Part shown: piece by piece, positions 8,774 to 25,501 of the stretch
How positions within the stretch are numbered: position 1 is the stretch's first letter
Layout: the number at the start of each line of letters is the position of its first letter
Source: a bacterium
GTDB taxonomy: Bacteria; UBP6; UBA1177
DNA: 50,706 nucleotides
Direction of reading: 5' to 3'
Assembly (NCBI GenBank): GCA_017961325.1
Contig: JAGCXM010000032.1
Coordinates: 1-50,706, forward strand
Program-made: the position numbers and the translations under genes
Notes under the pieces: model-generated
What the model saw: the letters and a program-made list of their open reading frames with translations, nothing else
What the model was told of the DNA's origin: nothing
Databases searched by the model: none

Positions 8774-10087
8774 ATGGAAACACAGAAACCGACCAAAACG
8801 ATGGAAGAAATCGTCGCAGAGCTTGACCGCGACACTTTGAACAGGATAGTGTGCCGTCATGCGGAAAACGACGAGGATTTCAGCTGGATGATTTTAAAAG
8901 CCGCAATGAGCAGAAACGAAGTTTACGATGAGATAAAAAACGAGATGGCTTCGATACGAAAGTCGAAACGTTTTTACGACTGGTACTCATCCGGCGAACT
9001 TTATTCACAGCTTCGCAACATTCTTGAAGCAATCGAATTAAACATAACCGACAGTGAACAGGGAGTTGATCTGATACACAGATTTCTGCTTCTTGACAAG
9101 GCTGTATGCGGAAGATGCGATGACAGTGACGGAGGACTCGGAGAAATTTTCAATTACGAAGCAGTTGATCTGCTAAAAAAATTCGCTTCCTCATACAGCG
9201 ACAAAGAAAAGCTCGAACAAATAGTTTACAAGCTGATTGAAACAAACGATTTCGGCTGTCACGACGGAATCCTTAACGAAATAGCTGACATTCTGCCTGA
9301 AAAAAATATCCGCTCACTTATGACAAAAGATTTTTCCCGAGATCGTAACTACATAAAACCCCAAATGGCGTTTGCTTTAAAAGATGCACCTTTATTTGAA
9401 AAACTTTTGACAGAGACAAGACCAAACGGTTTTGGAAACCGTGATCTGATAGAACTCTCGAAATGCTGGATAGCATGCGGCGACCTCGGGAAGGCTCTTG
9501 AATACGCTCTGAAAATCGATCATAGCGATTCTTACAAAAAAGAGGTCATTCTTGAGGAAATTTACACAAAAAACGGTGACTCTGAAGCATTGAAAGACCT
9601 TTATTCCAAAAGTTTTATGAGATCTCCTCACGATGATACAAAAGATAAAATTATAAAAAATTTCGGAGAGGATTTCTTCAGCACTCTCGTGGAACAAAGA
9701 ATCGAAGATGTTGAAAAAAGCGAGTATTTTTATCAGAATGAAGTCGTTTTTCTGCTTAAATACAAAGGGGCTGAAGCAGCAGAAAAATATCTTTTCGCAA
9801 GAAGAAAAAAACTTGAACAGGAATACTTCCAGTCCGATTTTATCAAAATGGTAAAAAAAGAGTTCTCGCCTCTTGTCAGGACAATCGTACTGCGTGTTCC
9901 GCTCAATTATTATCTGGAAAGTGCCAACACAAAATATTATCCTGCAGCCGCAAAACATCTGAAATATCTTACAGAAATCGCGCCATTAATCACAGACTGG
10001 CGGGATGTTCAGCCTCACAATGAATTTATGGAAGTTATAATCGCCAAACATTACAGGAAAAAATCATTCTGGAGATATTTCGAGTAG
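8774..10087 (+). CDS. DUF6880-like protein
   Basis: A 437-residue cytoplasmic, helix-rich protein. The C-terminal AAAKHLKYLTEIAPLI..DW followed by HYRKKSFW (about 393-433) resembles the DUF6880 pattern, in which the tail HxRKxxFW is conserved. The middle is built of TPR-like helical pairs, for example WIACGDLGKALEYALKI (about 236-252). No catalytic motif is seen and function is unknown. GAGGTAAAAT precedes the ATG. A strong promoter lies about 110 nt upstream and no gene follows closely, so it is probably monocistronic. Base composition returns to that of the backbone here, marking the right edge of the A+T-rich island. Confidence 0.65.
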   Translation: METQKPTKTMEEIVAELDRDTLNRIVCRHAENDEDFSWMILKAAMSRNEVYDEIKNEMASIRKSKRFYDWYSSGELYSQLRNILEAIELNITDSEQGVDLIHRFLLLDKAVCGRCDDSDGGLGEIFNYEAVDLLKKFASSYSDKEKLEQIVYKLIETNDFGCHDGILNEIADILPEKNIRSLMTKDFSRDRNYIKPQMAFALKDAPLFEKLLTETRPNGFGNRDLIELSKCWIACGDLGKALEYALKIDHSDSYKKEVILEEIYTKNGDSEALKDLYSKSFMRSPHDDTKDKIIKNFGEDFFSTLVEQRIEDVEKSEYFYQNEVVFLLKYKGAEAAEKYLFARRKKLEQEYFQSDFIKMVKKEFSPLVRTIVLRVPLNYYLESANTKYYPAAAKHLKYLTEIAPLITDWRDVQPHNEFMEVIIAKHYRKKSFWRYFE

Positions 10088-12565: not shown

Positions 12566-12614
12566 ATTTGTAAACCTAGAAAAATCAAAAACATACACAA
12601 AAGTTCCATTTTTT

Positions 12615-12643
12615 TTGACTTTACGCAACTGTTTTGGTACTTT
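12615..12643 (+). promoter_or_regulatory. Promoter of the pyr operon
   Basis: TTGACT (12615-12620), 17-nt spacer, TACTTT (12638-12643, weak -10). A T8 run (12651-12658) preceded by GCGG begins 8 nt after the -10, at the expected transcription start. It is the only promoter I can see ahead of the next six genes. Confidence 0.5.
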
Positions 12644-12681
12644 TCAGCGGTTTTTTTTAGTTATTATTAATGGAGGAAAAA

Positions 12682-13059
12682 ATGGCAAAAGTTATTCAAG
12701 TGGTTATTGCAGTTTTGGTTCTTTACGTCGGCTGGTGCGTGGCTCAACCTTTCATTCTCAAATACAAGGTTACGAAAGCCGTAGAAAACATTGCACAGTA
12801 TGCCACAATTCACTCTGAAGATGAATCAATAAAGGAATTTGACAACAGGGTCAAACAGGATTTGGGCGGTAAAGTCGACACGACCAGAATAGCGAAAGAC
12901 GGAACGAGAGGCGGACTTCACCTTGAAAAGGACAGTGATACGAAACAGGTAAAGGCAAGATTCGTATATTTTGATGAAATGAAAATTTTCGGTAAGAAAG
13001 TCAAAGATTTCGAATTCATAATTTTTAAGGAAGCTGCCCTTGTAGATAAAATGTTTTAA
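12682..13059 (+). CDS. Short membrane-anchored protein of unknown function
   Basis: The start is taken at ATG 12682 because GGAGG (12672-12676) lies just upstream; an earlier in-frame ATG at 12670 overlaps that site. The product has 125 residues with one N-terminal hydrophobic segment (about 4-23, VIQVVIAVLVLYVGWCVA) and a soluble, presumably periplasmic remainder. The layout (TM, short helix VTKAVENIAQYA, charged alpha/beta domain) recalls DUF4845-like proteins, but I do not claim membership. It is the first gene of the pyr transcription unit, 12 nt before pyrR; no pyrimidine-related role is evident. Confidence 0.65.
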   Translation: MAKVIQVVIAVLVLYVGWCVAQPFILKYKVTKAVENIAQYATIHSEDESIKEFDNRVKQDLGGKVDTTRIAKDGTRGGLHLEKDSDTKQVKARFVYFDEMKIFGKKVKDFEFIIFKEAALVDKMF

Positions 13060-13071
13060 AAGGAGATTCTC

Positions 13072-13617
13072 TTGAAACGCGAAAGCATAAACGTCAGAAA
13101 AGTTCTTCTGAATGAATCTGAAATAGCTAAAATCATTGACAGAATGGTCTATGAAATGATTGAGCATCTCAGCACTTTAAAGAATGTTGCAATCGTAGGA
13201 ATACGCACGAGAGGCGTGATTCTTGCTGAAAGGCTCATCAAAAAGATCGAAGAAAAAGAGCATGTGAAGCTTGCAACCGGAACAATAGATATCGCACTTT
13301 ACAGAGACGATTTCTGCAAAGGCCTGAATTCGCCTAAAACGGGACCTTCGGTTCTCAATTTTGATCCTGAAGAGTATCACATCATCCTCGTTGACGACGT
13401 AATGTATACCGGCAGGACTGTCAGAGCCGCAATCGAAGCCGTTATGGACTACGGCAGACCGAAATCGATAAAGTTCGTTTCACTTATCGACCGCGGACAT
13501 CGTGAACTTCCGATCCATCCCGACATCGTCGGAAAAGTTATCGAAACCGAACCTGAAGACAAAGTAGCCGTTTTCTTTAAGGAAACCGACGGCGAAGACA
13601 AAGTTGTTCTTGGATAA
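13072..13617 (+). CDS. pyrR: Bifunctional pyr operon regulator / uracil phosphoribosyltransferase PyrR
   Basis: A 181-residue PyrR of normal length. The PRPP-binding motif is [17 protein letters not shown] (about 104-120), the family core [17 protein letters not shown], and [14 protein letters not shown] lies near the C-terminus. In Gram-positives and some deltaproteobacteria PyrR senses UMP/PRPP and binds pyr mRNA; here no anti-terminator/terminator leader is visible ahead of pyrB. The start is TTG at 13072, with AAAGGAG (13058-13064) 7 nt upstream; no in-frame ATG fits. It is followed by pyrB after 14 nt. Confidence 0.95.
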
Positions 13618-13631
13618 ACCGGAGAAAAACA

Positions 13632-14546
13632 ATGAAACATCTTCTTGGAATCGAAAATCTCAATAAAGATCAGATTATGAACATTCTCGAAACTGCCGTA
13701 AGTTTCGCGGAAATCAACCGGAGACAGATCAAAAAAGTGCCGACTCTGAAAGGCAAAACGATCATCAACTTCTTTGCGGAACCTTCGACCAGAACGAGAA
13801 CTTCGTTTGAAGTTGCCGAAAAGCGTCTCAGTGCCGACACCTACAACATCGCAGTTTCGGGCAGCGCAATACAGAAAGGCGAAACTCTCGCCGACACCGC
13901 GCTCAACCTTCAGGCGATGGGCCCCGATGCTATGGTCATCAGGCACTCCGTTTCTGGAACGCCGCAGCTTCTTACCGAAATCATGGACTGCTCGATAATC
14001 AACGCGGGCGACGGTTTCCACGAACATCCGACGCAGGCTCTGCTTGACGCCTACACGATCTGGCAGAGAAAAGGCGGATTCGAAGGGCTCAAAGTGGCGC
14101 TTCTGGGTGACATTTATCACAGCAGAGTCGCAAGATCAAACATCTACCTTCTCAACAAAATGGGGGCGCATGTTTCGATTTCGGGTCCCGGAACGATGCT
14201 TCCGAAAGAGGTCGAAAAGATGGGCGTTACCGTTGAAAAACTGCCGAAATACGCGGTTCAGGATGCCGACATCGTCATGATGCTCAGAGTCCAGAACGAG
14301 CGCGCAAGCAACCTGCTCTACCCGGATGTAAGAGAATATTCGAGATACTTCATGCTCACTCCTGAACTCCTCAAACTCGCTAAGAAGGATGCTCTCGTAA
14401 TGCATCCGGGGCCGGCAAACAGAGGAGTCGAAATCGATGATGTCGTCATGGACGGCGAACAGTCGGTCATCCTTGAGCAGGTATCAAACGGAGTAAATGT
14501 CAGAATGGCTGTTCTTTATCTTCTTCTCGGAGGGTCGGATAAATGA
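13632..14546 (+). CDS. pyrB: Aspartate carbamoyltransferase catalytic subunit
   Basis: A 304-residue enzyme that condenses carbamoyl phosphate and aspartate in the second step of UMP synthesis. The carbamoyl-phosphate loop STRTRTS (52-58) is intact. Other conserved parts are the 80s loop [26 protein letters not shown] (H-P-T-Q) and [11 protein letters not shown] near the C-terminus. Length is that of a catalytic chain. No pyrI regulatory subunit is present in the operon. It overlaps pyrC by 4 nt (ATGA). Confidence 0.97.
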
Positions 14547-15817
14547 AATTAGTTGTTAAAAACGGAACGGTTGTTAATCCGCTCGTCGGAAAAACCGAAA
14601 AAACTTCAATAGTTATGGAAAACGGTGTTGTAACGGAAATAACTAAGAATCCTGACACGAAAGATGCAGAAGTTTTCGATGCCGACGGTCTTTTCGTCGC
14701 TCCTGGATTCATTGACATCCATGTCCACTTCAGAGATCCCGGCTTCGAATACAAGGAAGACATCATTTCGGGTCTTGAAGCCGCTGCAGCCGGCGGATTC
14801 ACCTCTGTCTGCACTATGCCGAACACGAAACCGGCGGCTGACAACGTCGAAACCATCCGCTATATCTACGAACGCGCTTCGAAAGGAAACGGCGTAAAAC
14901 TTTATCCTATTGCCGCTGCTACAAAAGGGCTCAAAGGCGAGTCTCTTGCTCCGATCGGAGAGCTTGCGGAAGGCGGTGCGATCGCTATCAGCGACGACGG
15001 CAGACCGATCCAGAACACCGATCTTCTCAAAAGAGTCATGGAATATGCTTCGACTTTCGACATGATGTACGTTTCGCACAGCGAAGACCTTTACCTTTCA
15101 GAAACTGCGCAGATGAACGAAGGCTACTACTCGACGGTTTACGGCATGACGGGATGCCCCGTTGTCGGTGAAGCTTCGCAGATAGCACGCGACTGCATGA
15201 TGGCTGAATATCTGAAGCTTCCGATCCACATCGCTCACGTCAGCGCGGCTCTTTCGGTAGACATCATCAAATTCTTCAAGGAGCGCGGTGCAAAGATCAC
15301 GGCCGAGACGGCTCCGCACTATATCACGCTGACCGATGAGGCTCTCGGCGGATTTGACACCAATACCAAAATCAACCCGCCGCTGCGCAGCGAAGCTGAC
15401 AGACTTGCAGTCATCAAGGCTTTGAAAGACGGCATAATCGACGCGATCGCAACCGATCACGCACCTCACCACCAGCGCGAAAAAGAGGTCGAGTTCAACA
15501 ACGCTCCGTCGGGAATCGTAGGCTTGGAGACGGCTCTTCCGCTCGTTCTCAAACTTTACCACGATAAAGAACTCACGATCGAAAAAATCGTCGAACTTTT
15601 CACTGCCGGTTACAGAATCATGGGAATCAAAGGCGGAAAAATCGAAGTCGGCGCTCCGGCTGACATCACCGTTTTTTACCCTGATTACCAGTGGACGGTT
15701 GACAAAAACATGTTCAAATCGAAAAGTCACAACACTCCTTTCCACGGCTTCCACGTAAAAGGTGCTGTAACGGTCACGATTGCGAACGGTAAGATAATTT
15801 ATTCCAGAGATTTTTAA
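14543..15817 (+). CDS. pyrC: Dihydroorotase (type I)
   Basis: A 424-residue amidohydrolase cyclising carbamoyl aspartate. The first zinc ligands are in [10 protein letters not shown] (H60, H62). Other signatures are [18 protein letters not shown] and IATDHAPHH (third-strand Asp region), and [10 protein letters not shown] binds substrate. Length and motifs place it with the PyrC/PyrX-type I dihydroorotases that pair with PyrB. The start overlaps the pyrB stop (ATGA) and the end overlaps the next ATG (TAATG). Confidence 0.96.
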
Positions 15818-16434
15818 TGAGTGCCGTAAAGACAGGAATTTATTCATCTTTTGATGATATTGAATCTGCGGCGCTGCAGGATTTTAAAAAGGAATGCTTT
15901 TATTTTACGGGTGAAGACCTCAAAAACCACGACTTCTGGCAGCAGTTTTTCAACCTTTTCTTCATCTACCACTTTGACACCGGCGGCAAAACGACTCTTG
16001 CCGACAAGCGCGAACTTGAAAAGGCGCGGATCGTGCTTTTTTCTCCGTCCATTTTCTCAAGGCTTAAAGGAGAAGATTTTTTCACCGGCGAAAAACTGAA
16101 TCTTTCCGAAGACGAGGAAAACAGCCTTACCTGGTACCGCGAACGCGATTTCATCCTTTCGTTTTTCCACGAAAAGGAGGACGGAATCCACTTCGTCGAA
16201 AGCCGTTCGTCCCTGCTTATTCCGCAGAAGGCGGCCTCTTTTTTCAAAAAGCTGAGAACGGCTATGAATGAAAATCATTACTTTCCGTCGAACAACTACC
16301 TTCTTCTTCTCATCGCTATTCTCATGCTGAAAAAAGAACGTTTCGCAAGTTCCAAACTTTACAATCCCTATCAGTTCGAAGAGATAGAAAAACTTCACCT
16401 TTACTACAGCAAATTTGCTGATTTTATTATCTGA
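15817..16434 (+). CDS. Unknown cytoplasmic protein in the pyr operon
   Basis: A 205-residue protein whose ATG overlaps the pyrC stop by one base, so it is translationally coupled. No signal peptide or long membrane span is seen; a hydrophobic stretch YLLLLIAILML near residue 160 is probably a buried helix. Aromatic residues are abundant (FWQQFFNLFFIYHF about 45-58). I do not recognise a family. It sits between pyrC and trxB (22 nt before the latter). Its place suggests co-expression with pyrimidine synthesis but gives no function. Confidence 0.7.
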   Translation: MSAVKTGIYSSFDDIESAALQDFKKECFYFTGEDLKNHDFWQQFFNLFFIYHFDTGGKTTLADKRELEKARIVLFSPSIFSRLKGEDFFTGEKLNLSEDEENSLTWYRERDFILSFFHEKEDGIHFVESRSSLLIPQKAASFFKKLRTAMNENHYFPSNNYLLLLIAILMLKKERFASSKLYNPYQFEEIEKLHLYYSKFADFII

Positions 16435-16455
16435 ATTCAAATTTAAAGAGGAAAA

Positions 16456-17376
16456 ATGACCGAACTTTACGACGTTGCCGTCATCGGAAGCGGTCCGGCG
16501 GGAATGACAGCCGGAATCTATGCTTCGCGTGCTCTGCTCAAGACTGTGATTTTTGAAAAAAACGCTTACGGCGGGCTTATGGCTCTAACCGACAAACTTG
16601 AAAACTGGCCCGGAGAAAAATCGATAGCAGGCTACGATCTGGCCGAAAAAATGCACGCTCAGGCACTCGATTTAGGCTCGGAATTCGTTTCTGAGGAAGT
16701 CCGGAAAGTTGAAAAACTCGAAAACGGAAATTTTGCGATAAAAACGGCTTCGGGAAATGAATTTTCGGCGAGAACAGTGATTTATGCAGCAGGTTCGGTT
16801 CCAAGAAAAGCTGAAATTCCCGGAGAAAAGGAGTTCACCGGAAACGGAGTCAGCTACTGTGCGGTTTGCGACGGAGCCTTTTACCGCGGGCTTAAAGTCG
16901 CGGTTCTCGGCGGCGGAGACAGCGCTTTGAAAGAGGCGCTTTACCTCACGAAATTCGCTGAAAAAGTTACGATAATCCACAGAAGGGAAGAGTTCAGAGC
17001 CGAAAAAATCACGCAGAATGAAGTGCGCAAGAATCCTAAAATCGATTTCGTTCTCAATTCTGTCGCCGAGAGGATCGAAGGAAAGGATTTCGTTGAAAAA
17101 ATCGTAGTTAAAAACGTCAGAACCGGAGAGCTTTCTGAAATCGCAGTTGACGGCGTTTTTGTCTTTTTAGGCTACATTCCGGAGACAAAACCTGTTGAAA
17201 ATATTGCAAAAATCTCAGAAAGTGGTCATATTGTTACCGATTCGGAATGCAGAACTTCGACTGAAGGTCTCTTTGCAGCCGGGGACATCAGGGAAAAACT
17301 GGTACGCCAGGTTTCCACTGCAGTCGGAGACGGCGCGATTGCGGCTGTTGCGGCTGAACACTATTTATCGAAATGA
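16456..17376 (+). CDS. trxB: Thioredoxin reductase
   Basis: A 306-residue flavoprotein of normal TrxB length. FAD motif GSGPAGMTAGIYASRA (11-26); redox centre CAVCDGAF with C135 and C138; NADPH-site motif VLGGGDSALKEALYL (about 149-163); C-terminal FAD motif GLFAAGDIREKLVRQVSTA. It reduces thioredoxin (or redoxin domains) with NADPH. GAGGAAAA precedes the ATG. It is the last gene of the pyr-led unit. A likely client in this window is the redoxin domain fused to NrdD (inference). Confidence 0.95.
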   Translation: MTELYDVAVIGSGPAGMTAGIYASRALLKTVIFEKNAYGGLMALTDKLENWPGEKSIAGYDLAEKMHAQALDLGSEFVSEEVRKVEKLENGNFAIKTASGNEFSARTVIYAAGSVPRKAEIPGEKEFTGNGVSYCAVCDGAFYRGLKVAVLGGGDSALKEALYLTKFAEKVTIIHRREEFRAEKITQNEVRKNPKIDFVLNSVAERIEGKDFVEKIVVKNVRTGELSEIAVDGVFVFLGYIPETKPVENIAKISESGHIVTDSECRTSTEGLFAAGDIREKLVRQVSTAVGDGAIAAVAAEHYLSK

Positions 17377-17512: not shown

Positions 17513-19036
17513 ATGCGTTTGTTTCGTTTTTTGGTAATTTTTTTAGTCTTTTCTTTTGTTTTTGCTGCATGCAGTTCCGGGGAAGATGACCTTGAACTCG
17601 AAAACGGTGGGAATGATAGCGAAAACAAAAGTAGTGACAACGGGAACGGAGACGGAGAAAGCGTTAACGGAGATCAGAATCGGCAGAATCTCAACTGCGG
17701 AAACGGTATTACTGACGACGGTGAAGTTTGTGACGGTAACGCTCAGGAATGTTCTCTTGCCGACTCGAAGTATACCGGCGGATTCGCTACGTGCAAAGCT
17801 GACTGCTCAGGCTGGGATGTTTCAAACTGCCGGACAGTATCAAACGACGGCGGGGAAGACGGGAACAACGATGGAAACGGCAACAACAACCAGAATGCCG
17901 GATTTGACAAAAATTCAAATGGAATCTGGGTCGATCCGGATACTTACCTCATTTGGGAAAACCCGATGGGCAATCAGGGAACAGGCGGCGTCGGACCGAC
18001 ACACACACAGGCTGCAGCATACTGCGAAAATCTCGTTCTTGCAGGGACTGACGACTGGAGACTGCCGACAATAGACGAGCTCAGGACTCTCGTCAGAGGC
18101 GTAAGCACGACAATGACAGGAGGGAAATGCCCCACAAGCGAAAGCTGTACTGATCAGGACAGCTGCAACAAAGACAAGGAAAACAAGCACGGGTTCGGCA
18201 ACTCATGTCTAGGCTGTGATGCACTTGATTCCCAGTACGACTCTGCCATTTCATATCTTACGGAGAGTGACTGCCGGCTCAGCGATATAAATTTTGAAAA
18301 CGGTGAATACTACATCGTTCCGGCAATGTTCACTGATCCTTACAGATTGTGGTCAAGCACTAAAAATACAGGTCTGGCCGGTTCGGCAATGCAGGCGTTC
18401 TGGTATCTCAACTATAAAAGCGGTCAGATCAACAGCGGTTCGGATTCGACGAGTAACCACTGGGTAAGATGCGTCAGAACCGGAACTGCAGCCGATGTTC
18501 CGGAACAGGATGCCGAAGTCGAACACGATCCTTCATGGGAATGTATAGTAGAAGCCGACTGCTCAGAAGGCCAATGGTGTCAGAACCACAAATGTGTCAC
18601 CAAACCGAAAGAAACCTACGTTGCGGCAAACGGTCTCGAGTGGCAGGCAGGACAGGTGGAGAGAATCGAGGGATGGGGCAATGCTGCACCGCACTGTGAG
18701 AATCTTGAATATGCAGGACACGATGACTGGAGGCTTCCCAATATCACGGAACTCAAATCACTCGTCACAGGCTGTGCAAAAACGAATGAATGTCCTGTCA
18801 CCGCAGAGGCACCGGAATATCCAGGAAATTATTCGACGGTTTGCAAAACTTGCAGCAGCGGAAACTATATGCCGCAGGAAGTAGGGCAGCAGATCGAGTT
18901 CCCGTATTGGACAAGCACCAACGATCCGAGCAAAACCAACAGAGTTTGGGCTATAAACTTCATGACCGGTGCGGTTTTCTACAGCTACAATACCGCAAAC
19001 CACTATGCAAGGTGTGTTCGCGGCACAATGAACTAA
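17513..19036 (+). CDS. Cysteine-rich lipoprotein with two DUF1566 (Lcl C-terminal-like) domains
   Basis: A 507-residue exported lipoprotein. The signal peptide ends in the lipobox FAAC, so C20 is the lipidated residue. An acidic Asn/Asp/Gly-rich tether follows, then a cysteine-rich segment of Myxococcota type (CGNGITDDGEVCDG, about 62-75). Two DUF1566 domains come next (about 130-330 and 365-505), each with the signature DDWRLP and a terminal HW/HYxRCVR. DUF1566 domains relate to C-type lectin/FGE folds and are found on surface proteins. Rows of GNDDGN-type linker indicate surface display. AUGGAGGTCC is the ribosome binding site. A decayed copy of its signal-peptide region lies on the other strand at about 19400-19438. 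Confidence 0.85.
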   Translation: MRLFRFLVIFLVFSFVFAACSSGEDDLELENGGNDSENKSSDNGNGDGESVNGDQNRQNLNCGNGITDDGEVCDGNAQECSLADSKYTGGFATCKADCSGWDVSNCRTVSNDGGEDGNNDGNGNNNQNAGFDKNSNGIWVDPDTYLIWENPMGNQGTGGVGPTHTQAAAYCENLVLAGTDDWRLPTIDELRTLVRGVSTTMTGGKCPTSESCTDQDSCNKDKENKHGFGNSCLGCDALDSQYDSAISYLTESDCRLSDINFENGEYYIVPAMFTDPYRLWSSTKNTGLAGSAMQAFWYLNYKSGQINSGSDSTSNHWVRCVRTGTAADVPEQDAEVEHDPSWECIVEADCSEGQWCQNHKCVTKPKETYVAANGLEWQAGQVERIEGWGNAAPHCENLEYAGHDDWRLPNITELKSLVTGCAKTNECPVTAEAPEYPGNYSTVCKTCSSGNYMPQEVGQQIEFPYWTSTNDPSKTNRVWAINFMTGAVFYSYNTANHYARCVRGTMN

Positions 19037-19133
19037 GTTACCGTAGTTTTTCCGCTACAATTTTCAGCAGCAATTAAGCTTTTTAAATCAGTTTTTTAAG
19101 ATTCAGCGCAGGAAATAATTTTTTATGTGAAAG

Positions 19134-19166
19134 AAAAAATCAGGAATAAAATCGATTTTTGCCTGA
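19134..19166 (-). terminator. Minus-strand terminator after the nrdD-tail relic
   Basis: Read on the minus strand: TCAGG ... CCTGA arms (19162-19166 and 19140-19144) enclose the palindrome AAAATCGATTTT and are followed by six T (19139-19134). It lies 17 nt beyond the relic's stop, so it closes the minus-strand unit. Confidence 0.7.
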
Positions 19167-19182: not shown

Positions 19183-19438
19183 CTATTTGAGACCGCGTTT
19201 GAAGCCGATGATGTCGGAGAGTCCGGAGTCGCTGTTACCGAAAGTTTCCTTGTCGATATTCCCGGAAACCTGATATTCGGTTCTCTTTTCAAATTCCTGT
19301 TTTTTGCCGTCGTTTCAGTGTTCGATCGGTCTGTAGTAGCCTGTATCGCCTTCAGACATTTCATCATCATGGAGACACTGCATGAAAAAACATAAACGCA
19401 AGAACCAAGAAAATCAGCAAAAAACGAAATAAACGCAT
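19183..19438 (-). pseudogene. Relic: lipoprotein signal peptide joined to a decayed nrdD 3' end
   Basis: From ATG 19438 (AGAGG upstream) the minus strand reads MRLFRFLLIFLVLAFMF, clearly a copy of the signal peptide of the DUF1566 lipoprotein (MRLFRFLVIFLVFSFVF), then shifts frame. From about 19345 to the stop at 19183 it matches the NrdD tail: GYYRPIEH, a stop where NrdD has Trp, then NDGKKQEFEKRTEYQV, KETFGNSDSG. It then jumps directly to LSDIIGFKRGLK, corresponding to the last residues of NrdD (LSDIISFKKNLK). The linker and redoxin domain present in the intact gene are missing, apparently joined across a CCGG shared by both ends. No function is expected. Confidence 0.8.
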
Positions 19439-19464: not shown

Positions 19465-19566
19465 TTAGACTTCGGACAAAGTATATTTTTCTTTAAATCT
19501 GACATATTCCTTCTTGAAAGTTTCGTCAAAAGTCCTGAAGGCGTTCTGGTTTTCGTGGGTATTCAT
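19465..19566 (-). CDS. 33-residue ORF coupled to the truncated kinase
   Basis: It starts 2 nt after the kinase stop (TAAATATG) and encodes 33 mostly charged residues beginning MNTHENQNAFRTFDETFKKE. No family is recognised and no obvious separate ribosome binding site is seen. It could be a small protein or a leftover of an insertion that truncated the kinase. Confidence 0.25.
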   Translation of the reverse strand: MNTHENQNAFRTFDETFKKEYVRFKEKYTLSEV

Positions 19567-19568
19567 AT

Positions 19569-20078
19569 TTAGGCTATCACGATAACTATGCCGATAGGCT
19601 GGACGAATCCGATCAGCAGCGACCATACAGCCATCTGCACGATGGAAAGACGCAGCACCGAACCGTCTGGAAGGCGCTTTGCAGCATACAGCTGCTTATC
19701 CGCCAGAGTGCTGGAATAGCGCGTAGTCTCGCCGTATCCCTCTTTCAGAGCGAGCCTGACTTCCTCTCGCTCAAGGTGGTTTTCCATTTTTGAAGTGTCG
19801 GCTTCGTTGTCGTAGAGGATGTTTCCTTCAGCATCGATCCAGGTGATCCTGTAGCCGTCCGTGCCAAGGTTTTCGAAGTATCTGATCCCCGAGAGAGCGA
19901 CTCCCCGTGCGGCTATTTCCGTTTCATTTTTGAGCTGGCGCTTCTGCAGCCCGGAGAAATAGTTGTAGGAAATACCCATGATGAAAACAAGTGAAGCAAG
20001 AAATACGGAGACTGCAACCCGCCAGATCGATTTGAAAATTTTATTGCTTATCTTTTTCCTCCATCCTATAGCCGACAC
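19569..20078 (-). pseudogene. Sensor histidine kinase truncated after its second membrane helix (PhoR-like)
   Basis: 169 residues: TM1 about 19-40, an extracytoplasmic sensor with YRITWIDAEGNILYDNEA, MENHLEREEVRLALKEG and RYSSTLADKQLYAAKRLPDG, then TM2 about 150-169. It ends with a stop inside or at the end of TM2. The HAMP, HisKA and HATPase domains (about 400 further residues in relatives) are absent, and nothing downstream encodes them. The sensor closely resembles PhoR-type kinases of gut Clostridia as I know them. The start is uncertain: the frame begins at GTG 20078, overlapping the regulator gene by 38 nt, which is typical of such pairs. It cannot phosphorylate its partner. Confidence 0.75.
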
Positions 20079-20718
20079 CCCTGACTGTCTGGATCAGGTC
20101 TCCTGCCTCTGCAAGTTTTGTCCTGAGCGTTCCGATGTGGACATCCACTGTCCTTGTTTCGCAGAGAAAGTTCATTCCCCAGATGCTGGAGAGAAGGAAC
20201 TCTCTTGTAAAAACGTGGCCCGGTTTTTCCATAAGGAGTTTCAGGAGGTCGAACTCTTTCAGAGTCAGCGGAACCGTGGTCCCTTTGACCGTTACGGTGT
20301 GTCTGTTCACGTCGAGAGCAATGTCCCCGCAGGTGAGAAGTGAAGCCTGTTTAGGTGATGTACGCCTCAGAACAGCCTTGATGTGGGAAACCATTTCCAT
20401 CATTCCGAATGGTTTTGCGAGATAGTCGTCAGCTCCGCTGTCAAGCCCTATGACCTTGTCGTATTCGCTGTCCCTGGCTGTTGCCATGATCGCCGGAATA
20501 TCGGCAGTCGAAGAGGATGCACGCAGCTTTTTCAAAATAGTCAGACCGTCTTCTCCGGGGAGCATCACATCAAGAATTATGAGCAGCGGTTTTTCTCTCT
20601 TCATCGCAGTCCAGAATTTTTCACCATTTTCGAAGCCCTGCGCATCAAAACCCGATGCCTTCAGGGTGTAAACCATCAGATCTCTGATCGTGCTGTCGTC
20701 TTCCACGCAGTATATCAA
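20041..20718 (-). CDS. OmpR/PhoB-family response regulator
   Basis: 225 residues: receiver domain 1-115 with acidic pocket EDD (6-8), phosphoacceptor D50 (LIILDVMLPGEDG), T80 and K102 (AKPFG). The winged-helix DNA-binding domain spans about 128-220 (LTLKEFDLLKLLMEKPG, VDVHIGTLRTKL, TVRGVGYRM). Start TTG 20718 with AAGGAGG 5 nt upstream. It is intact while its cognate kinase is cut short, so phosphorylation would need another kinase or acetyl phosphate. The sequence looks clostridial, suggesting transfer from gut Firmicutes (inference). It lies about 100 nt downstream of nrdD on the same strand. Confidence 0.92.
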   Translation of the reverse strand: MIYCVEDDSTIRDLMVYTLKASGFDAQGFENGEKFWTAMKREKPLLIILDVMLPGEDGLTILKKLRASSSTADIPAIMATARDSEYDKVIGLDSGADDYLAKPFGMMEMVSHIKAVLRRTSPKQASLLTCGDIALDVNRHTVTVKGTTVPLTLKEFDLLKLLMEKPGHVFTREFLLSSIWGMNFLCETRTVDVHIGTLRTKLAEAGDLIQTVRGVGYRMEEKDKQ

Positions 20719-20822: not shown

Positions 20823-23252
20823 TTACTTTAAGTTCTTTTTAAAACTGATGATGTCGGAGAGACCGGTGTAGGTTTTGTATGCGCCGTTTTCTCCGCAGAC
20901 AACGACCGCCGGAACGCTTCTGATTCCGAATTTTCTAGCCAGATCCATGTTGTCTGCCGCATCAAGAACTCTGAGATAGGGAGTTCCTTCCATTTCCTCC
21001 TTTGCTTTCGGGCAGTTGGGACATGTTTTCTGCGTGAAGAGGAAAACCTGTTTGTCACTGCACGATGCTGCTGACATCGAAGCTGCCGGCTGAACGAAGG
21101 ATTCGGGAGCTATTTTGGTGTTAATGCCGATGAAACCGCCGTTTCCGGAGTCGCTGTTACCGAAAGTTTCCTTGACGATATTTTCGGAAACCTGATATTC
21201 GGTTCTTTTTTCGAATTCCTGTTTCTTGCCGTCGTTCCAGTGTTCGATCGGTCTGTAGTAGCCTGTGATTCTGCTGTAGACTTCGACTTTGCCGCCGCAT
21301 TTCGGGCAGGAATCGTGTTCACCTGCGCTGTAGCCGCATTTCGGGCAGATCGTGTAGGTCGGAGAAATCGTGAAGTAGGGGAGTTTGAAGGTGTATGCGA
21401 TCTTTTTGACGAGTGCCGCAGCCGACTGCCAGGAAGGAAGCTTTTCGCCGAGGAATGTGTGGAAAACCGTTCCGCCCGTGAACTTCGTCTGAAGCTTGTC
21501 CTGGATTTCGAGAGCTTCGAAAGGATCGGTCGTGTAGTTTACCGGAAGGTGGCAGCTGTTGGTGTAGAAAGGTTTCTCGTCCTTGCCTGAAGCAGCAGTG
21601 ACGATGTCGTCCCATCTTGCCTTGTCCATCTTAGCAAGGCGGTATGCGGTCGATTCGGCCGGAGTTGCTTCAAGGTTGTAGAGGTCGCCCGTCGTTTCCT
21701 GATAGTTTTTAAGTTTTTCGCGCATGAAATCAAGGACATCCTGCGAGAACTTGAGCCCTTTGTGACCTGCGATGTTCTCTTTGATCCAGCATGCGTTGAG
21801 GCACATTTCGTTCATGCCGACAAGACCGATAGTAGAAAAGTGAGAGTTGAAGTTGCCGAGGTATCTTTTGGTGTAGGGGTAGAAGTTCTCGTTAAGGAGT
21901 TTCGTGCAGACTTTCCTTTTGATTTCAAGGCTTCTCTTCGCGATATCCATGAGTCTTTCAAGCTTTGCGTAGAACTCTTCCTCGTTCTTCGAGTTGTATG
22001 CGATTCTCGGAAGGTTGATCGTTACGACGCCGATGCTGCCCGTTTTTTCGCCGCTGCCGAAGAGACCGCCCGTTTTCTTGCGGAGTTCCCTTTTGTCAAG
22101 CTGGAGTCTGCAGCACATGCTTCTGACATCGCTCGGTTTCATGTCGCTGTTGATGAAATTCTGGAAATAAGGCGTGCCGTATTTCGCAGTCATTTCGAAA
22201 AGGAGCGGAACATTCTCGCCTTCCCAGTTGAAGTCCTTCGTGATGTTGTAGGTCGGGATCGGATACTGGAAACCGCGGCCGACAGCGTCGCCTTCAAGCA
22301 TTATTTCGATGAACGCCTTGTTGATCATGTCCATTTCCTTCTGGCAGTCGCCGTAGGTGAAATCCATCTCTTTTCCGCCGACTATCGCCGGAACGTTCTT
22401 GAGGTCTTCCGGGCATACCCAGTCAAGCGTGATGTTGCTGAAAGGAGACTGCGTGCCCCATCTCGACGGAGTGTTTACGCCGAAAACGAAAGCCTGGATA
22501 GCCTGTTTTACACCTTTGTAGTCAAGTTCGTCAACGCGTGCGAACGGAGCGAGATAGGTGTCAAAGCTTGAGAAAGCCTGAGCGCCTGCCCATTCGTTCT
22601 GCATGATGCCGAGGAAGTTGACCATCTGGTTTGCTATCGTGTAGAGGTGGTTTGCCGGAGCGGATGTAAGCTTGCCGGGAACGCCGCCCAAACCTTCCTG
22701 GATGAGCTGTTTGAGCGACCAGCCTGCGCAGTAAGCGGTAAGCATCGAAAGGTCGTGAAGGTGGAAGTCGCCGTTTTTGTGGCACTGTGCGATTTCGTTG
22801 TCGTAAATTTCGCTCAGCCAGTAGTTTGCCGTGATTTTTCCGCTGTTGTGAAGGATAAGTCCGCCTATGCTGTATGTAACGGTCGAATTTTCCTTGACTC
22901 TCCAGTCTTCGTTGTTGACGTAGCTGTTGATCGTCTCTTTGTAGTCGAGGATCGTGGACTTCATTTCACGGAGTTTTTCGCGCTGCTTTCTGTAAAGGAT
23001 GTAAGCCTTTGCAACGGTGGTGTATCCGCTCTTTTCGAGAGTGTTTTCAACGCTGTCCTGAACGTCTTCGATCTCGATGACGTTGTCGTGGATCTTGTTC
23101 TGGAAATCTGCCGTTACTCTGAGCGACAGGATATCCAGGATATCATCATTAAAAAGCATATCGGCGGCGACGAATGCCTTTTTGATAGCTTCCTTGATTT
23201 TGTTAAGGTCGAAATCAGCTAACGCGTTGTTTCTTTTTCTGATTTTGAACAT
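20823..23252 (-). CDS. nrdD: Anaerobic ribonucleoside-triphosphate reductase with C-terminal redoxin domain
   Basis: 809 residues from ATG 23252 (GAAGGAG 7 nt upstream). An ATP-cone (about 1-90, FKIRKRNNALADFD) controls activity. The catalytic barrel includes GDFHLHDLSMLTAYCAGW and GVNTPSRWGTQSPF. A zinc site CPKC...CPKC precedes the glycyl-radical loop RITGYY (G about 664). After a linker, the last ~78 residues form a glutaredoxin/thioredoxin-like domain with CPNC (C744, C747) and the cis-Pro segment IRSVPAVVV. Class III reductases need the activase NrdG, not found here. The fused redoxin suggests reduction by a dithiol rather than formate (inference from redoxin-dependent NrdD types). A tandem NrdR-like box pair lies upstream. 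Confidence 0.96.
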   Translation of the reverse strand: MFKIRKRNNALADFDLNKIKEAIKKAFVAADMLFNDDILDILSLRVTADFQNKIHDNVIEIEDVQDSVENTLEKSGYTTVAKAYILYRKQREKLREMKSTILDYKETINSYVNNEDWRVKENSTVTYSIGGLILHNSGKITANYWLSEIYDNEIAQCHKNGDFHLHDLSMLTAYCAGWSLKQLIQEGLGGVPGKLTSAPANHLYTIANQMVNFLGIMQNEWAGAQAFSSFDTYLAPFARVDELDYKGVKQAIQAFVFGVNTPSRWGTQSPFSNITLDWVCPEDLKNVPAIVGGKEMDFTYGDCQKEMDMINKAFIEIMLEGDAVGRGFQYPIPTYNITKDFNWEGENVPLLFEMTAKYGTPYFQNFINSDMKPSDVRSMCCRLQLDKRELRKKTGGLFGSGEKTGSIGVVTINLPRIAYNSKNEEEFYAKLERLMDIAKRSLEIKRKVCTKLLNENFYPYTKRYLGNFNSHFSTIGLVGMNEMCLNACWIKENIAGHKGLKFSQDVLDFMREKLKNYQETTGDLYNLEATPAESTAYRLAKMDKARWDDIVTAASGKDEKPFYTNSCHLPVNYTTDPFEALEIQDKLQTKFTGGTVFHTFLGEKLPSWQSAAALVKKIAYTFKLPYFTISPTYTICPKCGYSAGEHDSCPKCGGKVEVYSRITGYYRPIEHWNDGKKQEFEKRTEYQVSENIVKETFGNSDSGNGGFIGINTKIAPESFVQPAASMSAASCSDKQVFLFTQKTCPNCPKAKEEMEGTPYLRVLDAADNMDLARKFGIRSVPAVVVCGENGAYKTYTGLSDIISFKKNLK

Positions 23253-23299
23253 TTGTTTTCTCCTTCGGGTTAAAAGTTTAAACACACAAAAAGCGCGGC

Positions 23300-23328
23300 A
23301 ATATTGCACAAGTGATTGTGGTTGTCAA
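23300..23328 (-). promoter_or_regulatory. nrdD promoter
   Basis: Minus strand: TTGACA (23328-23323), 17-nt spacer, AATATT (23305-23300). A T5 run starts 8 nt after the -10, after a GCCGCGC stretch. Confidence 0.65.
23306..23321. promoter_or_regulatory. NrdR-like box 2 (weaker)
   Basis: GCACAAGTGATTGTGG matches the NrdR consensus ACACWATATATWGTGT at 11 of 16 positions and lies in the promoter spacer, 32 bp from box 1. Confidence 0.5.
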
Positions 23329-23539: not shown

Positions 23540-25501
23540 TTGCGATTCCCGCCGCTTTTTTTAGGTTTTTCAACGATTTTCTGGGGCTTTTGCACCGGTT
23601 GGGAGGTCTTTTCCATAGTTGCGGCGCTTGTTTTTGAAGCTTCAAACATCGTCAGAACGAGGTTCGACCTTCAGAAAAAGGATTTTATCCGCATTTCCGA
23701 TCTCAGTTCCCTCGTTATGCTGATTCTTCTCTTTTATTCGTATGTTGAAAACGAGCCGCGGATGATTTTCCTGGGTTTCATAACGACTTTGCCGATAATT
23801 TTCATGCCGCTTCTTTTTGCGCAGCTTTTCAGCACTTCTGACAAAGTTATAATCGGAACGAAATGGGGCAGGAGAACCCATTCGCATGCTCCTGTCGATG
23901 TGCGTTCGCTTTACATCCTTTCAATCGTTTTTGCAACCGCCGCCGCAAATATAAAAACGGTGTGGTTCGTTTTGTTTTTTCTGCTCATGGTTCTTATTTC
24001 TCTTTCCGGCTACGCCAAAGATTCACGAACTTTGAAACGCTATATTGCTTTTTCGTTATTAGCTGTTTTTACTACGATTTTTATTGGTGCGGCGGTTGCC
24101 GGCGGTCATTTTCTGATTGGCAGAAAGATGATGGAATGGTATAACGGCTGGTATTCTTCCTTAAATGCAGATCCATTTAAGACATCGACTGCGATGGGAG
24201 ATGTCGGCAGAATGAAGCTTTCCGGTGAGATCGTTTTCAGAGTTTATCCGGAAAAGCCCTCTCTTCCGCTTTACATGAAGCAGTCGGACTACAATATTCT
24301 GATGCACAATTCCTGGTATTCGAGACCGAAAACGACAGAACCGGTTTTTCCTTTTGACGATATGGTGTGGCAGTTTTTCGGTGAAGGTTCCGGGGAAGAG
24401 AAGATGAAAATCTCGATTTGGATGGATAAGAAAAAGGGCGAAGGTGTCTTGCCGCTTCCGGACGGTGCAAAAATGGCGCTTGAGCTTGACGTTGCCGGAA
24501 TCGAAAAGAGTGCTTTAGGGGCGATATATGTCGAAGAAGGTCCTGAACTGCTTGAATTTACGATAACTTATGACAGTGAGAACCGTTTCGAGCCTTTTCC
24601 GGACAGGGGTGATTTGTTTGTTCCTAAATCTGAACGCGCTGTCATTGACGAAGTTATGCGCCAAAACGGGCTTTTCGGGGCGACTTCGGCCGAAACACTT
24701 GAAAATATCGAGCGTTTTTTTGCCGCTTTTAAATACAGCGTGGATTTGAAAAATAAAGCCGGCCGCTCATTTCTCTACGATTTTTTGAACAATACTCGTG
24801 AGGGACACTGCGAATATTTTGCTACGGCTACGGTTCTCATGCTTAGAAATGCCGGAATTGCCGCAAGATACCGTACCGGCTTTATGCTTGACGAATACAA
24901 TTCGTTTGAAAACGCCTTGATTGCAAGAAAGCGTGACGCCCACGCCTGGGTGATTGCCTATATCGACGACAGATGGGTTACGGTTGATACTACTCCGTCT
25001 CAGTGGAAGGAGTCCGATGCGAGTGAAAAATCGTTTTTCGAGCCCGTAAGCGACCTGATTTCCTGGATAAAAATGAATTATGAGAATTACAGACGTAAGA
25101 AAAGTGCCGATTTTAACAGAATTCTGATTGCCGTTGCGACCGTTCTCACGGTTTTTCTTATGGTCCGTGTCTATTTGCGCAAAAGGCGCGTAGGCGGTAA
25201 GGATAACGCCGGAAACAGGCTGTTTGACACTCCCGGAAGCGATTCTCCGCTTTACAAAATTCTCGATTTTTATGAAAAAAACGGATTAAAAAGGAATGAT
25301 TGCGAAACTTTGCGCCGCTGGATTGTGAAAAACAGGGAAAAACTCGGTGAAAATATGGCTTTTTATGCCATTGCAAGACTGCACGAAGAATTGCGTTTCG
25401 ACAAAAGTGCCGACCAGGATGCTGTTTTGGCGGAACTTATGCAAAAATATGAAGAGTGGAAAAATTCCATTATTGAAGAAAAAGATGGTTTTTCGGTGTA
25501 A
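23540..25501 (+). CDS. TgpA-like membrane-bound transglutaminase-fold protein
   Basis: A 653-residue protein starting at TTG 23540 (GAGG about 8 nt upstream). Hydrophobic helices occupy about 20-35, 55-100, 120-157 and 167-192. A large extracytoplasmic part contains the transglutaminase core: C424 in EGHCEYFATA, H468 in DAHAWVIAY, D483 in VTVDTTPS. A further TM (about 527-541) and a cytoplasmic tail close the protein. The order matches TgpA/DUF3488-transglutaminase proteins, usually next to MoxR and DUF58 genes, which are not seen here. The catalytic triad is complete, so it may process or crosslink envelope proteins; the substrate is unknown. It leads a plus-strand group with a membrane protein and an ABC ATPase. 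Confidence 0.85.
   Translation: MRFPPLFLGFSTIFWGFCTGWEVFSIVAALVFEASNIVRTRFDLQKKDFIRISDLSSLVMLILLFYSYVENEPRMIFLGFITTLPIIFMPLLFAQLFSTSDKVIIGTKWGRRTHSHAPVDVRSLYILSIVFATAAANIKTVWFVLFFLLMVLISLSGYAKDSRTLKRYIAFSLLAVFTTIFIGAAVAGGHFLIGRKMMEWYNGWYSSLNADPFKTSTAMGDVGRMKLSGEIVFRVYPEKPSLPLYMKQSDYNILMHNSWYSRPKTTEPVFPFDDMVWQFFGEGSGEEKMKISIWMDKKKGEGVLPLPDGAKMALELDVAGIEKSALGAIYVEEGPELLEFTITYDSENRFEPFPDRGDLFVPKSERAVIDEVMRQNGLFGATSAETLENIERFFAAFKYSVDLKNKAGRSFLYDFLNNTREGHCEYFATATVLMLRNAGIAARYRTGFMLDEYNSFENALIARKRDAHAWVIAYIDDRWVTVDTTPSQWKESDASEKSFFEPVSDLISWIKMNYENYRRKKSADFNRILIAVATVLTVFLMVRVYLRKRRVGGKDNAGNRLFDTPGSDSPLYKILDFYEKNGLKRNDCETLRRWIVKNREKLGENMAFYAIARLHEELRFDKSADQDAVLAELMQKYEEWKNSIIEEKDGFSV

Follow-up and report, generated by a model that had tools for sequence, protein, structure and literature searches.

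How did a second, broken end of nrdD, joined to the beginning of a lipoprotein gene, come to lie on the minus strand at 19183-19438, in a genome that retains an intact nrdD nearby? In the window (the whole stretch of DNA analyzed, 50,706 nt), the intact gene occupies 20823..23309 on the minus strand and encodes a class III ribonucleotide reductase with an ATP-cone and a C-terminal thioredoxin-like domain (Pfam NRDD, PF13597, 1e-190; ATP-cone, 4e-19; Thioredoxin_2 below its curated cut-off; NCBIfam PRK08270); its start may be an internal ATG, which would give about 809 aa. The thioredoxin-like domain at 20823-21060 carries a CPNC motif in NrdD of the genus and is matched only weakly by Pfam. 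Upstream of nrdD lies a transglutaminase-domain gene (23540-25501), at a place held by lepB in most members of the genus. The evidence described below makes it very likely that the broken copy is a scar marking the far side of DNA that was inserted at the nrdD 3' end.

The stretch 19183-19344 (minus) is a second nrdD tail, running from the glycyl-radical TGYY motif to the stop and approximately 90% identical to the intact tail. The alignment of both scored 212, as compared to a maximum of 38 among 500 dinucleotide shuffles; an ungapped comparison gave 89% identity over 146 nt, and BLAST against the whole genome matched the relic to 21126-21266 with 90% identity over 141 nt (E 1.4e-49). An exact 25-mer from the relic found no match among the genome contigs searched. 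The translation reads TGYYRPIEH, a stop, NDGKKQEFEKRTEYQVSGNIDKETFGNSDSG and, beyond the break, LSDIIGFKRGLK followed by the final stop. As the sequence-only reading had claimed, a tryptophan codon has become a stop (TGG to TGA at 19315-19317, nine residues past the start of the motif), and the linker and redoxin domain have been lost precisely between two CCGG sites: the gap corresponds to 282 bp of the intact copy, from CCGG at 20863-20866 to CCGG at 21145-21148, and a single CCGG is left at the deletion point (19223-19226). The relic thus lacks the thioredoxin-like domain and retains the last nrdD codons beyond the gap. The NRDD domain with its glycyl-radical loop was found in the intact gene only; of this loop, the relic keeps only the piece from TGYY onward. 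The relic has six private codons, each of them a replacement or a stop (one being the nonsense codon) and none synonymous, which is a small sample, whereas ten intact tails show zero to four private codons each over the same positions. This pattern supports decay of a tail that appears to be under no purifying selection, and most likely the relic has no function today. Neither its private decay nor its flank was found in any other genome examined. A genetic code reading TGA as tryptophan was considered and rejected, since the frameshifts and the deletion would persist and the same codon is TGG in the intact NrdD in all ten tails compared. Spare glycyl-radical domains occur, as in the case of pyruvate formate-lyase; such a role was rejected for the relic given the nonsense codon nine residues after the motif start and a corresponding relic without the motif in the sister genome G012 (a UBP6_UBA1177 genome).

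Directly upstream of the relic tail, and fused to it, lies the start of a lipoprotein gene of the Lcl_C type in decayed form (19345..19438, minus), consisting of a signal peptide (19388-19438) and a frameshifted acidic linker. It is frameshifted twice, just before the lipobox cysteine and again a few codons later. The window carries an intact paralogue at 17513..19036 on the plus strand (Pfam Lcl_C, 1.8e-37), relatives of which are present in G003, G012 and G013, and the fused start had been read as a frameshifted copy of the signal peptide of this gene. The copy is real and frameshifted, with 78% identity over 51 nt to 17513-17563 and a score of 58 as compared to a shuffle maximum of 37; the assignment to the gene at 17513 in particular did not hold, as the lipoprotein start of G012 matches it better (score 68). 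The signal peptide comes from an insert-linked gene, not from the one at 17513. Its positional counterpart is a relic beside the symporter gene of G012 (L043 9665-9724). At the join of lipoprotein start and nrdD tail in the window (GAT/ACAGGC) no clear homology was discerned by eye, and later deletions may have shifted the join. The G012 scar (L043 9623-9724, minus), inspected directly in the sequence, can be read as a 33-codon open frame, MHLFRFLLIFFVLAFMLFACGLSDIISFKKNLK, comprising signal peptide, lipobox and the last NrdD residues, and it is preceded by a good ribosome site (GGAGG), as might be expected if the fused relic were a functional small lipoprotein with an NrdD-derived tail. We regard this as extremely improbable: one frame in three is in register by chance, which makes the G012 frame weak evidence, and in the window copy the ribosome site is weakened and the frame is broken by two frameshifts and a nonsense codon.

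Two-component genes had been placed between the two tails. This proved correct for the response regulator (20041..20718, minus), the first gene of the island, which is intact, Clostridia-type and of the PhoB/OmpR type (Pfam Response_reg and Trans_reg_C; best NCBIfam model PhoB, below the PhoB cut-off) and differs from its G012 counterpart at one position within the gene. It did not hold for the PhoR-like histidine kinase (19569..20078, minus), which is cut after 169 residues and followed by the end of a symporter that had been overlooked. In G012 the full kinase comprises 466 aa with HisKA and HATPase_c; the window copy matches its residues 2-171 at 98% and then ends, leaving the sensor part with no Pfam kinase domain (HisKA, HATPase_c). 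The remnant of the nptA-like Na/Pi symporter (19468..19569, minus) comprises the last 34 codons, identical at 100% to residues 551-584 of the 584-aa symporter of G012, the first 550 codons being deleted. As the junction at 19570/19571 corresponds to positions 9856/12552 of G012 L043, a single deletion of 2.7 kb, taking out the kinase domain and almost the entire symporter, would explain both losses. With the kinase truncated and the symporter lost, the acquired operon thus appears to be dead in the window genome, or reduced to an orphan regulator.

Comparison with sister genomes showed the site both empty and filled. In G013, no insert is present, and about 35 bp separate the nrdD stop from a subtilase gene, which has its 3' end toward nrdD. 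In G012, nrdD is followed by the response regulator, the 466-aa kinase, the 584-aa NptA, the lipoprotein start, a 43-nt nrdD end and the subtilase gene. This leftover nrdD end is 95% identical over its 43 nt to the native end in G013 and runs on into the common flank and the subtilase gene, the subtilase flank being near-identical in both genomes. The working nrdD of G012 ends differently, in AAGAACTTAAAGTAAGAACAG, which among the genomes looked at it has in common only with the window. The gene order in relatives without the two-component genes, proposed as a check by the sequence-only reading, supports insertion: besides G013, priA directly abuts nrdD in G006, G007 and G014 and lies 73 bp away in G010. 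The two scars are unlike in break points and flanks, with the relic starting at TGYY in the window and at LSDII in G012, where a later deletion could mask the original start. A short-word search of the other relatives for more nrdD relics recovered only the one in G012, along with a 7-nt repeat seen by eye in G004. The subtilase has only distant relatives in the window genome, and the far flank of the window scar could not be tied to it.

These comparisons also bear on a simple tandem duplication of the nrdD tail, with a later unrelated rearrangement placing the two-component genes between the copies. Despite the fact that the relic stretch AATATCGACAAGGAAACTTTCGGTAACAGCGACTCCGGA differs from the window's own nrdD at one place only, as a local duplication might leave it, we consider this very unlikely: in G012 an nrdD-end relic follows the same operon at the same place, the site is uninterrupted in G013, and duplication alone would not bring in a foreign operon. 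Two possibilities had been raised from the sequence. Duplication is disfavored, while insertion of the two-component genes close to an nrdD 3' end, with subsequent decay, is supported by the empty site in G013, the filled site in G012 and the non-synonymous private codons. That account was incomplete in that it missed the Na/Pi symporter, the Clostridia-type origin and the broken state of kinase and symporter.

The inserted genes are foreign to the group. Across the 15 genomes of the genus, the kinase and this type of symporter were found only in G012 and, as remnants, in the window genome; the genus otherwise holds only distant relatives of the kinase and a symporter paralogue at about 33% identity. 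The same restriction of the symporter type was seen across the 25 genomes of the order, the other 23 having no match at E 1e-80. By contrast, the best public-genome matches of the insert are mostly from rumen and gut Clostridia, many of which show the gene order response regulator-kinase-NptA, mostly with 65-76% amino acid identity among the best hits. In a phylogenetic tree, the G012 kinase nests among Clostridia kinases, with several forks open and a few labels naming other phyla. Since the operon is absent from the other genomes of the order searched and widespread in rumen and gut Clostridia, this phosphate-uptake operon was acquired horizontally beside nrdD, apparently from rumen Clostridia.

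Moreover, the island has moved recently. The window and G012 differ at only 5 positions in 1267 bp of the island (99.6% identity), whereas the fourfold sites of nrdD in the two species are only 64% identical; this argues for a recent movement, either from one of these lineages to the other or from a third source into each of them. The identity to G012 shifts inside the last nrdD codons (20837/20838), as a crossover might leave it, and drops again just past the symporter stop at about 19452, in the lipoprotein start, where 9 of 72 sites differ while the rest of the island is near-identical (Fisher p 4e-9). Recombination would thus have switched at the last nrdD codons and in the lipoprotein start, and the differing scars together with the diverged lipoprotein start require at least one later recombination. 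As the relic has more private change (six codons) than the island, the scar probably predates the most recent exchange, on an order of events reconstructed from these differences. The same jumps in identity might be expected from a metagenome assembly artefact joining two related strains; the genome is unclosed, in 48 contigs, and the 2.7-kb deletion in particular could be a local mis-assembly. As an explanation of the locus, such an artefact is nevertheless very improbable: the jump in nrdD spans closely spaced differences (20838, 20841 and 20844) with no long shared k-mer, the window island has private differences of its own, and the decay of the relic and its flank are unique among the genomes examined.

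A further explanation is a site-specific integrative element with the nrdD 3' end as its target and a replacement tail of its own, comparable to prophage e14 at icd (icdA/icdC) in Escherichia coli, which is excised by site-specific recombination at an 11-bp repeat (PMC4759930). The topology is the same: the insert is flanked on one side by the intact gene and on the other by a displaced copy of that gene's 3' end. In G004, a 2.8-kb insert (L046 4188-7028) separates priA from the very end of nrdD and is bordered at each end by GAAGTAA, the final 7 nt of nrdD; it contains RhuM/PLD-like fragments and an uncharacterised 440-aa gene and represents an independent insertion at the same spot. While the repeat would fit a targeted element, the complete G012 insert encodes only the response regulator, the kinase and NptA and no integrase, the inserts of G004 and G012 have no genes in common, and, unlike at icd, no fixed core was found, the relic starts varying between genomes, with the reservation for G012 given above. 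We therefore judge a site-specific element highly improbable. The broader suggestion that foreign DNA lands recurrently at the nrdD 3' end in the genus, on the grounds that two or more unrelated inserts lie exactly there (the phosphate operon of G012 and the window; the RhuM-fragment insert of G004), each with a duplicated nrdD-end piece, is tentative and on present evidence unlikely.

Following the preferred reading, insertion at the nrdD 3' end, we propose that what integrated next to nrdD was a Clostridia-type operon (PhoB-like regulator, PhoR-like kinase and Na/Pi symporter) together with the 5' part of a lipoprotein gene of native type to which it was linked. The nrdD beside the insert would have kept an intact 3' end, and a second nrdD tail, from the glycyl-radical motif, would have been stranded functionless beyond the insert together with the old downstream neighbor; subsequently, the stranded tail would have decayed through the nonsense codon, the replacements and the CCGG-to-CCGG deletion. 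Integration might have been anchored at one end by homology within nrdD, with the other end joined non-homologously inside the lipoprotein gene; a single crossover with a circle carrying the nrdD tail and the operon (Campbell-type) would have the same outcome. The former route, homology-facilitated illegitimate recombination, is tentatively favored; neither an integrase or transposase nor a clean target repeat turned up at the insert. This type of recombination has been described for transformation and conjugation (PMC3240628) and proposed for displaced 3' immunity genes in Vibrio T6SS clusters (PMC5361080). The nrdD locus resembles these cases in the orphaned 3' pieces beyond the insert, and would resemble them also in the presumed homology anchor at one end and the presumed illegitimate join at the other. 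It differs in that observation is limited to the end product, in genomes of uncultured bacteria, and that the stranded piece is the tail of a housekeeping gene.

The old neighbor may still be traceable. An 18-nt exact match to the 3' end of priA lies at 19132..19149 (plus), in collinear place and right orientation with regard to five relatives with priA beside nrdD, and none of 500 shuffles reached this match; it is a probable relic of the former neighbor across the nrdD 3' end. The window genome has its own priA elsewhere (contig C13, L172, G000:C13:12550-14550), which is 74% identical to the priA of the other genus members (91-94% among themselves). Unlike priA, nrdD and pyrC show the usual closeness, and this may point to a mosaic genome. 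The pyrR-pyrB-pyrC-trxB block (12580-17376) is inverted relative to G010, where the pyrR end faces priA and nrdD.

Taken together, the locus is ordinary gene-transfer debris, a new example of a known process that is unusually well resolved by the sister genomes. Compared to the PhoB-PhoR-Na/Pi symporter operons of rumen and gut Clostridia, which it resembles in gene order, the window copy ends in a truncated kinase and the last residues of the symporter, and annotators should be aware that in this genome the two-component genes found here do not form a functional system. The locus opens no new kind of biology; for the little-studied UBP6-type bacteria, it cleanly documents a natural transfer of genes between phyla in the rumen, showing the foreign operon, the native gene that served as anchor, the site in both its empty and its filled form, and decay at two stages.
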